Part shown: positions 6,346 to 9,377 of the stretch, one piece after another | Layout: the number at the start of each line of letters is the position of its first letter | Position numbering within the stretch: position 1 is the stretch's first letter | Source: a virus | Strand: one strand, 5' to 3' | Length of the DNA: 41,530 bases | IMG/VR virus record: IMGVR_UViG_3300025009_000215 | Span: 1-41,530 of that record | Program-made: the position numbers and the translations under genes | Notes under the pieces: generated by a model | The model's input: only the letters and a program-made list of their open reading frames with translations | The model's database searches: none | What the model was told of the DNA's origin: nothing

Positions 6346-6690
6346 ATGAAATGCAAACATTGTGGTCAAGAAATAAAAAAAACAAAGTGGACTAAAATCG
6401 GAGACTTAGAATGGAGCGAAGACTTAGGCGAAATGAATTGGTTCGAAGCTGAAAAAAAATGCAAAGAGCTAGGTGGAAGATTACCAACTAGGATTGAACT
6501 GATTAATTTGTTAGATAATCACTATGAAGAAATGACTGGAAAATTAAATGAAGCCGGCTACAACTATTGGTCGGCGACTACGTACTCGTACAACGCTCAG
6601 TACGCTTGGGTCGTGCTCTTGCCCTACGGCTACACGAACACCACTACTAAGACTACCTCTGCCAGTTACCGAGTGCGTTGCGTTCGCTAG
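6346..6690 (+). CDS. Zinc ribbon plus DUF1566/C-lectin-fold protein, likely DGR-type variable protein
   Basis: 114 residues. An N-terminal CKHCGQ zinc knuckle (3-8) is joined to a DUF1566 (Lcl C-terminal) C-type-lectin fold: MNWFEAEKKCKELGGRLPTR (about 32-51), then YWSATTYSYNAQYAWVV and SASYRVRCVR at the end. Target proteins of diversity-generating retroelements use this fold and end this way. The last ~135 bp switch abruptly to GC-rich codons dominated by TAC, AAC, ACC and ACT, unlike the AT-rich 5' half. This is what adenine-templated mutagenesis of a 3' variable region leaves. No reverse transcriptase or template repeat is visible here, so it would have to act in trans. Confidence 0.7.
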   Translation: MKCKHCGQEIKKTKWTKIGDLEWSEDLGEMNWFEAEKKCKELGGRLPTRIELINLLDNHYEEMTGKLNEAGYNYWSATTYSYNAQYAWVVLLPYGYTNTTTKTTSASYRVRCVR

Positions 6691-6965: not shown

Positions 6966-7137
6966 GAAATGCCGAAAATGCGGTGGGACTGATCGCCATT
7001 ACGGAAAAGGATTGTGTCATAAGTGTTATCAGTCTAAATTTCACAAATCATACGAACGAAAGGATATTGAAAGACACCGGGAACTTTCGCTTGCTAATTA
7101 CTATAAGAAAAAGCTTGACAATAAATCTGATAGGTGA
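6916..7137 (+). CDS. Basic zinc-finger protein
   Basis: About 73 residues from the ATG at 6916 (in-frame ATGs at 6880 and 6889 would increase overlap with the upstream gene). CRKCGG and LCHKC form a four-cysteine zinc finger, like the N-terminal fingers of HNH homing enzymes or transcription regulators, followed by a basic helix (ERKDIERHRELSLANYYKKK). Probably binds nucleic acid. It is the last gene before the pseudoknot leader. Confidence 0.55.
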   Translation: MKIWGRGKVNGILKTFKKCRKCGGTDRHYGKGLCHKCYQSKFHKSYERKDIERHRELSLANYYKKKLDNKSDR

Positions 7138-7166
7138 GAAAATAGAATAAAGATATGCAAATAAAA

Positions 7167-7246
7167 TACACGACTACAAATAGAATAATAAATTATTGCC
7201 AGCAAGGAGTAGGTTTTGCATTTAGTCGTGTAGCCTACTCCTTTTT
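7167..7246 (+). promoter_or_regulatory. H-type pseudoknot overlapping a terminator (leader of the replication operon)
   Basis: Stem 1: TACACGACT (7167-7175) with AGTCGTGTA (7224-7232), nine pairs. Stem 2: GGAGTAGG (7206-7213) with CCTACTCC (7234-7241), eight pairs, then TTTTT (7242-7246). The 3' strand of stem 1 lies in the loop of stem 2, one base from it, so the two form a pseudoknot or compete. A terminator hairpin whose loop is locked by an upstream strand looks like an RNA switch, 13 bases before the replication gene at 7259. Confidence 0.65.
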
Positions 7247-7258
7247 GGTTGCAATTTT

Positions 7259-8101
7259 ATGAAAGAAACATTTTATTTCGCACACGACTATAATGCTAGT
7301 CAAGACCCAAAGATTTTAAATCTACTCTATGAGCTTAAGTGGGAGGGTTACGGACTGTATTGGTTGCTTATAGAAAAATTAGCTGAAGCAAATGGTAAGC
7401 TATTGCTAACCGATTTGAGAGGAATAGCTTTTTCATCACATATCGAATTAGAAAAGCTAAATTTGCTTGTAAGCAGTTTTTTTCTCTTTGAAGAAGATGG
7501 AAAATATTTTTGGAGCAATAGACTTTTAGACCACTTAAAGAGTAGGCAAAAAATATCTAATCTAAGGGCTAAACTAGGAAGATTGGGAGGTCAAGCAACA
7601 GCTAAGCAATTGCTAAGCAAAAGCTCAAGCAAAATCAACCAAAGTAAAGGAAAGGAAAGTAAAGGAAAGGAAATGAAAGAAATAGAATTTTCTAACGAAA
7701 ATTGCGCTCTCTCTTATAAAGAACCTCCAAAAGATACTTATCAAGACAAAGCTAAGACTTATAAGAAATTAGGAATACCATATAAACCACCTAAAAGGTC
7801 AGATAAACAAAATACCGCCTGGGATACCGAACTATTAGCGCGCTTTGTAAAAGACAAGGCAATGGAAATGCACCGTGTAGAGGTTTATGTGAACAAAAAA
7901 GAATCTTCTAAAAGCTGGTCAGCGCTTTCAAGGGCAATAAAAGAATTAGGAATTGAAAAAGCCAAGGGAGTTGCTGAGCATTATTTGCAAAGCGAAAAGT
8001 ATGATAAGTTTGGCGCTGATATTTCTACAATGTTTTCCGACCACTCAATAAATATGTTTTTACAAAAAAAGGAAAATAAATACGAAGGCATAACACTCTA
8101 A
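7259..8101 (+). CDS. Replisome organiser, DUF4373 / Lin1244-Lin1753-like N-terminal domain
   Basis: 280 residues. The N-terminus (FYFAHDYNASQDPKILNLLY, then WEGYGLYWLLIEKLAE) is the Lin1244/Lin1753-like domain of phage replication initiators, a winged-helix-like module that recognises the origin. A Ser/Lys/Gln-rich linker (about 105-145) leads to a C-terminal helical part (about 175-265), perhaps the helicase-loading region. The DnaB helicase gene follows four bases later, so this protein probably brings the helicase to the phage origin. Control by the upstream pseudoknot-terminator is likely. Confidence 0.75.
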   Translation: MKETFYFAHDYNASQDPKILNLLYELKWEGYGLYWLLIEKLAEANGKLLLTDLRGIAFSSHIELEKLNLLVSSFFLFEEDGKYFWSNRLLDHLKSRQKISNLRAKLGRLGGQATAKQLLSKSSSKINQSKGKESKGKEMKEIEFSNENCALSYKEPPKDTYQDKAKTYKKLGIPYKPPKRSDKQNTAWDTELLARFVKDKAMEMHRVEVYVNKKESSKSWSALSRAIKELGIEKAKGVAEHYLQSEKYDKFGADISTMFSDHSINMFLQKKENKYEGITL

Positions 8102-8105
8102 AAAT

Positions 8106-9377
8106 ATGATTTTAAAATTAAGAGAAAAATCAAAAGAAATTGAACATAAAATAATCAGCCATATTGCCAACCGGGCAAAAGACGCTGTTTCTGTCTTCTC
8201 AATTTTAAACGAGGATGATTTTTCTGACGTTAAAAACAAGAAAGCATTTATCGCAGTTAAGGAGTCGGTTTTAAAAGAAGAGGATATTTATTCTAAATTC
8301 GAAGACGCAGGACTTTTATTTTCAGACTTTGTTAATGTTGATTTTTCTGACGTAACTCACAAAGCGAGAACTTTAAAAAGAATCAGTACGGCTTTAAAAC
8401 TAAATAAACTTATCGAACGCTGGACAAATAGAATCGACAACACAAACATTGACGAATCAATATCAAACTTCACGCGTGAGTTTAGCCAGTCAACTGGGCT
8501 ATGCGAAAGAGAGCGCACTGACATTAAGTCAATTATTGCAGATTACGAAAAAGACCAAGAGCTTTATGCAGAGAAATACCGAAATGGGGATAAACTTTTA
8601 GGACTATCAACTGGGTTTGGAAAAATTGACAACGTGATTGACGGAATCCGCTCGGGGCATTTTTGGGTAATCGGTGGATACAATAACACAGGGAAAACCT
8701 TTCTTGCTTTAAATATCGTAGTTAGTCTTTTGAACCAAGGGAAAAGGGTTGTAATCTACTCAATGGAAATGAGCAAGAAAGATTTAGCCGGTCGCTTAAT
8801 GGGAATATTAGCGGATATGAACTCAGCTAAAATTTTAAAAGGAATCCTCACTTCAGAAGAATCAGAAAAGCAAATGAAAGCCAAAGGTATCTTATGGGAA
8901 AAAAATCTTAATATTTATCAAGACCTAGATGACTACGAACAAATAAAACTTTCAATGTACGAAGAAAGTATGAAAGAACTAGTGGATTGTTTTGTTATTG
9001 ATTATATGCAACTTTTAAAAAGCACAAATCTCAACGAATACCAGTTAATGACAATGGCGAGCAGTGAGTTTCAGTCAATCGGACGAAAGACTGGAGTTCC
9101 GATCATCGCTCTTTCGCAGATTTCAAACGAAGTAGCAAAAAATGCTGATAGGTCAGTGGGAGGTTACAAGGGAAGTGGAGGAATTGAAGCTTCATCTGAT
9201 ATTGCTTTGAAACTTGTCCAAACCGAAGAACTAAAAACAGTCCAGGAAAAACAAAAAAATCACGTTCCAATAAATATCGACTGCATAATAACTAAAAATC
9301 GCCACGGCATAAAAGGTTTAATCCCGATGAGCTTTGAAGGGTACACAGGAATCTTTTATGAGGGCTACGAAACATAA
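8106..9377 (+). CDS. dnaB: Replicative DNA helicase, DnaB family
   Basis: 423 residues. The RecA-like core has Walker A GGYNNTGKT (190-198), the DnaB-specific IYSMEMSKKDLAGRL (217-231) and Walker B CFVIDYMQLL (295-304). Then come a Gln-switch ALSQIS motif, GGIEASSDIAL and a KNRHG finger near residues 398-402. The N-terminal 150 residues are helical and shorter than in bacterial DnaB. It unwinds the phage fork as a hexamer and, with no phage polymerase or primase visible, works with the host replisome. Confidence 0.9.
   Translation: MILKLREKSKEIEHKIISHIANRAKDAVSVFSILNEDDFSDVKNKKAFIAVKESVLKEEDIYSKFEDAGLLFSDFVNVDFSDVTHKARTLKRISTALKLNKLIERWTNRIDNTNIDESISNFTREFSQSTGLCERERTDIKSIIADYEKDQELYAEKYRNGDKLLGLSTGFGKIDNVIDGIRSGHFWVIGGYNNTGKTFLALNIVVSLLNQGKRVVIYSMEMSKKDLAGRLMGILADMNSAKILKGILTSEESEKQMKAKGILWEKNLNIYQDLDDYEQIKLSMYEESMKELVDCFVIDYMQLLKSTNLNEYQLMTMASSEFQSIGRKTGVPIIALSQISNEVAKNADRSVGGYKGSGGIEASSDIALKLVQTEELKTVQEKQKNHVPINIDCIITKNRHGIKGLIPMSFEGYTGIFYEGYET

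Follow-up and report, generated by a model that had tools for sequence, protein, structure and literature searches.

A leader RNA with a terminator loop that pairs upstream is probably an undescribed switch on replication in dozens of bacterial viruses

Guanidine-II is a kissing-loop riboswitch composed of two hairpins with paired loops, the letters of which are fixed for the ligand. Attenuators of the pT181 type act through pairing with a terminator arm. P4 immunity involves the CI RNA together with the sequences seqA, seqB and seqC; pairing inside the same leader results in premature transcription termination before the replication genes, and a SeqA-like leader, IsrK, is present in Gifsy-1 (PMC4825925). 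In I-complex plasmids, a pseudoknot in the repZ/repA leader stimulates translation and has a competitor in RNAI, a separate antisense RNA (PMC10724649). The pT181-type attenuators are cited in that article as countertranscript-driven (its ref. 8).

The DNA analyzed here, referred to as the window, is the whole 41,530-nt stretch of IMG/VR virus record IMGVR_UViG_3300025009_000215 (positions 1 to 41,530). It contains a leader that resembles the P4 immunity RNA and the I-complex rep leaders, although it shares the testable defining features of those systems only in part and thus was not filed as a member of either. The leader and the genes that follow it have these features:

7115 to 7143, plus strand: promoter-like site TTGACA-17-GAAAAT with TG, from a consensus scan; relatives have a promoter at the same place
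7155 to 7161, plus strand: 5' strand of helix Pa, ATGCAAA, which holds the leader ORF start codon and pairs with 7215-7221; the helix is kept with changed letters in L006, L007, L102 and L232
7155 to 7262, plus strand: 35-codon leader ORF that runs across every helix and has a stop codon sharing letters with the start of the replication gene (ATGA)
7167 to 7176, plus strand: 5' strand of helix Pb (K), TACACGACTA, from pairing and relatives
7204 to 7213, plus strand: 5' arm of the terminator hairpin Pc/P3, from folding and relatives
7215 to 7221, plus strand: 3' strand of Pa, TTTGCAT, in the hairpin loop, from relatives
7223 to 7232, plus strand: 3' strand of Pb (K), TAGTCGTGTA, in the hairpin loop, from pairing and relatives
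7234 to 7243, plus strand: 3' arm of the terminator hairpin Pc/P3, from folding and relatives
7242 to 7246, plus strand: T-tail and predicted RNA 3' end, from the sequence; T-runs accompany kissing hairpins in relatives
7259 to 8101, plus strand: replication gene, Lin1244_N (PF14297) domain match, E 1.1e-7
7281 to 7297, plus strand: third copy of the Pb 5' sequence, within the replication gene and able to pair with the hairpin loop, but not a general feature of relatives
8106 to 9377, plus strand: DnaB-like replicative helicase, DnaB_C match, E 1.6e-40

The initial annotation of this DNA had described an 8-bp T-tailed terminator hairpin locked in a pseudoknot by a 9-bp helix between its loop and an upstream strand. 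Both helices are present and both are longer than described: the terminator hairpin Pc has 10 bp (7204-7213/7234-7243) and a 20-nt loop, and Pb also has 10 bp (7167-7176/7223-7232), its 3' strand lying within that loop. The two were correctly placed one base from stacking, the single base 7233 separating Pb from Pc, and the replication genes said to lie downstream are there, the Lin1244_N gene starting 15 nt past the T-tailed hairpin and the DnaB_C gene following. The pseudoknot topology likewise stands, except that the window adds a third helix, Pa (7155-7161/7215-7221), which is absent from the initial annotation and crosses both Pb and Pc, and that the commoner form in relatives is two kissing hairpins. 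The strand order along the window RNA is Pa-Pb-Pc-Pa'-Pb'-Pc' and hence all three helices cross. Forming Pa and Pb simultaneously entails steric strain (the connectors are 1 nt and 5 nt), and the two may be alternatives. The T-run consists of only five Ts, two of which are paired in the stem. The consensus match of the promoter-like site predicts an RNA start near position 7150.

The window segment folds far better than chance (z -4.21). The loop helix alone was equalled by 19 of 5000 dinucleotide shuffles (upstream 70 nt), a modest improbability that is weak evidence and not decisive for a feature chosen out of 41 kb. A simple terminator scan gave no match because it does not allow loops of more than 8 nt.

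Relatives of the window type were found by scanning viral contigs with a pattern for the loop helix (L006 and L007/L008) and by searches with the replication protein (L102 and L232). Four other matches to the first pattern (L004, L005, L009 and L010) were judged on inspection to be unrelated inverted repeats, and L222 and L223, found with a DNA pattern built from the L006 type, were also unrelated. L006 and L007/L008 have the layout of the window and the same loop helix together with different Pa and Pc sequences. Across five leaders (window, L006, L007, L102 and L232) Pa, Pb and Pc are all present in unchanged order with compensatory changes, and the gap between Pa' and Pb' is one or two bases in each. 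The Pa versions are ATGCAAA/TTTGCAT (window), ATGACACAC/GTGTGTCAT, ATGAAACAC/GTGTTTCAT, TGAGACA/TGTCTCA and ATGAC/GTCAT, and Pb changes from ACACGACTA to ACACAACGCTA and ACACTTGC, the complement being exact each time. The initial annotation had named relatives lacking one of the helices as evidence that would count against it; L006, L007, L102 and L232 keep both helices in changed sequence, and the same holds in generalized form for the loop complementarity of the wider class described next.

About 290 Lin1244_N loci retrieved by protein searches had upstream sequence that could be used; they lie mostly on uncultured metagenomic contigs, and 215 of them were non-redundant. These loci were picked by the downstream protein and the class may also precede other genes. 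A T-tailed hairpin lies shortly before the start codon in 46 of the 215 loci, with 6-18 nt between hairpin end and start codon. Complementarity was scored within 70 nt upstream with a threshold of at least 17 (about 7-14 bp), which we set ourselves and applied equally to the control. The hairpin loop was complementary to the 5' part of its leader in 39 of the 46, compared with 3.9 expected when loops were paired with the upstream sequences of other loci, which strongly supports the earlier suggestion of a compact RNA element before the replication genes. At a score of at least 20 the counts were 26 observed and 1.2 expected. Other T-tailed hairpins of these loci numbered 530, and 62 of them (11.7%) reached a score of at least 17. 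About 30 distinct loop/anti-loop sequences are represented.

The usual form is a kissing-loop complex with both partners in hairpin loops, since in 25 of 42 leaders a 5' hairpin presents the upstream (K5) partner in its loop; perfect 7-nt kissing loops are found, for example, in L212, L219, L221, L153-L173 and L271/L272. The window type instead has an unpaired 5' strand without the 5' hairpin, plus the leader ORF. In most leaders the 5' hairpin directly follows a Bacteroidota -7 element (TAnnTTTG), and therefore the RNA start was placed at that hairpin. Promoter, 5' element and T-tailed hairpin thus occupy roughly 90-110 nt as one unit ahead of the replication gene. In a comparison of hairpins found without requiring Ts, runs of four or more Ts followed 25 of 36 kissing hairpins but only 9 of 46 others.

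Beyond the 46, the Lin1244_N gene mostly appears to lie inside an operon. Cultured carriers of the gene include Porphyromonas phage005b, EF62phi, LBR48, two Vibrio phages and Flavobacterium phage 1/32, plus plasmid pCT01; in those examined the gene directly follows another gene, leaving no room for a leader. Among the Lin1244_N genes from Bacteroidota genomes, none of those with a start located by script had a kissing leader. Several variants were noted upstream of Lin1244_N starts. L057, L069, L087, L089 and L202 combine strong loop-upstream complementarity with hairpins that have no T-tail, and are possibly a translational relative of the element. In L093 the complementarity between hairpin loop and upstream sequence extends over 23 bp, far longer than in other leaders; L018 has a short second loop helix (GCAATG/CATTGC) ordered like Pa of the window, and L027 carries an additional copy of the 5' strand (CAGTCACA) directly before the start codon.

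Neutral scoring of the terminator stems counted 37 G·U pairs and one A·C pair. This bias indicates that the sense transcript is the functional, selected molecule and excludes a purely DNA-level role. Covariation in alignment A6 extends to P1, K and P3, three of its four helices, and the small middle hairpin is invariant. Ten pairs changed on both sides, a result reached in none of 500 shuffles, a control that is lenient because the sequences are related. In the K loop-loop helix, three pairs changed on both sides and 100% of the cells were paired. The Rfam search gave no match at the gathering score and a single chance-level hit at a relaxed threshold. A covariance model of the kissing-hairpin type (R1) found L182, L193 and others, but elsewhere gave AT-rich terminators or coding sequence, showing that the model is unspecific without the pseudoknot. 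In the literature searched, from which most subscription journals were outside coverage, no description of such a leader was found.

Set beside that of the phage-plasmid P4, the element is likewise the leader of a phage replication operon (Lin1244_N then DnaB in the window), with predicted premature termination before the replication genes, and one segment of the RNA finds its complements within its own transcript, the window adding the third copy at 7281-7297. In contrast, CI is a separate processed RNA, whereas the complementary segment here is the terminator's own loop, and the Rfam search tied the leader to no described family at the gathering score. Moreover, the upstream target is general whereas the downstream target, within coding sequence, was present in the window only and showed no enrichment among relatives. 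As in the I-complex repZ leader, a 5' hairpin loop usually pairs with a structure beside the rep start, the window having its unpaired 5' strand instead. The distal structure is just before the replication gene in both cases, and in the I-complex the loop letters decide compatibility (PMC10724649). Unlike the I-complex, the distal hairpin here carries a T-tail, and there is no known antisense RNA. The leader shares with pT181-type systems a conditional terminator plus hairpin loops before a replication gene, but its terminator arms do not pair upstream: at a score of 14, the 5' arm gave 1 case (2.4 expected) and the 3' arm gave 3 (2.6 expected). The pairing thus engages the terminator loop, the arms are not enriched for upstream pairing, and there is no support for a classical antiterminator. 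Guanidine-II has the same arrangement of two hairpins with paired loops, but the loops here vary freely. About 30 loop pairs, the absence of conserved core nucleotides and the lack of an Rfam match speak against a small-molecule riboswitch.

In the window, L006, L007 and L232 the AUG inside Pa opens a leader ORF of 35-37 codons that crosses all of the helices; its stop overlaps the start of the next gene (window) or precedes it by 4 nt (L006, L007 and L232). The ORF of L102 is shorter. Between L006 and L007 the ORF has 8 amino-acid-changing and 2 silent codon differences and thus a conserved leader peptide was rejected. Ribosomes translating the leader would open the terminator and arrive at the replication gene. 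In the window type, where the ORF begins in Pa and ends at that gene, control coupled to translation may be added. The pairing of the hairpin loop with 7281-7297, the codons of an HDY motif, has 14 bp (-18.9 kcal/mol) and is better than that with the upstream strand; it was reached by 2 of 3000 shuffles but by 271 of 3000 synonymous recodings. Elsewhere in the window, an ORF at 6346-6690 is Lcl_C/C-type-lectin-like, and its C-terminal half (YWSATTYSYNAQYAWV...SYRVRCVR) resembles a variable region as found in targets of diversity-generating retroelements.

Dozens of distantly related bacterial viruses keep the pairing of this leader RNA while its letters change, and the RNA probably acts as a switch on virus replication that has not been described before. 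With moderate confidence we read it from these sequence comparisons as a replication-operon attenuator, recognized by pairing rather than by sequence and analogous to P4 immunity RNA or plasmid copy control, through which RNA would restrain production of the replication proteins. In the window, an RNA of about 95 nt would start near 7150 and usually end about 7246, before the replication operon. Its 5' strand would pair with the loop of the intrinsic-terminator hairpin; the hairpin would terminate transcription, and loop pairing would set how frequently RNA polymerase passes, giving fewer replication proteins. Loop pairing could coexist with the terminator in cis, so its regulatory role is not obvious. 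As both partners are on one RNA, cis pairing should compete with pairing in trans. The likeliest use would be copy-number or immunity control, in which nascent leaders are acted on by the short, terminated leaders of their own phage. In our view the pairing serves self-recognition because the loop letters diverge while complementarity stays. A loop pair that changes freely with complementarity kept points away from a ligand and toward recognition by base pairing, as plasmid incompatibility loops show it.

Other explanations differ in what the structure would be for. The kissing structure could be a binding site for a protein, either the Lin1244_N initiator or a host factor, that reads the loop-loop helix by shape and shuts off its own synthesis; the initial annotation had offered binding by the replication protein as an alternative. 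Rop recognizes the ColE1 RNAI-RNAII loop-loop helix by shape, and a structure that is kept while its loop sequence varies fits such recognition, as does a replication protein gene as the first downstream gene in nearly all loci. However, in L007 (3344-3673) and also in L008, an HNH endonuclease ORF intervenes between the leader and the Lin1244_N gene and the leader remains intact, and no conserved loop or bulge nucleotides were seen for a protein to read. We consider a protein site unlikely. Somewhat less likely still is translational control, in which a kissing structure beside the start codon would help or hinder ribosome entry, as does the I-complex repZ pseudoknot, the T-run being incidental. 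The short distance from hairpin to start codon and the window-type leader ORF that ends at the start codon are in keeping with this, as is the leader-peptide/pseudoknot rule given for plasmid rep genes in work cited in PMC10724649 (its refs 9 and 18). The excess of T-runs after kissing hairpins speaks against it, as do an element that starts at a promoter and ends at a T-run and a leader peptide that is not conserved.

Two further explanations have little left to recommend them. If the inverted repeats in front of the initiator gene were initiator binding sites or part of an origin, with RNA pairing a by-product, no strand bias would be expected; the G·U to A·C ratio largely refutes such a DNA element, and the repeats have no common sequence and directly follow the promoter, which makes this explanation very improbable. 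An ordinary terminator with chance complementarity has in its favor that the shuffles equalled the window taken alone, but is refuted by the relatives, namely the excess of complementary loops (39 of 46 vs 3.9 expected) and the compensatory changes, and is the least credible of all. Within the attenuator reading that we prefer, a broader proposal is tentative and more doubtful than not, though less so than a protein site: phages of Bacteroidota and some other bacteria would practice self-recognition by RNA only, the terminated leader finding nascent leaders of its own kind by fast-changing kissing loops and shutting the replication operon. Copy control and superinfection exclusion would follow, and there would be many types that do not recognize one another, much as plasmids fall into incompatibility groups.

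Control of phage replication is mostly credited to proteins. If the leader is an attenuator, it would represent a new and widespread family of replication-gene attenuators with a loop pair kept by compensatory change in about 30 versions. It would offer a designable, loop-programmed terminator and would make RNA-based 'incompatibility' among uncultured phages predictable from sequence.
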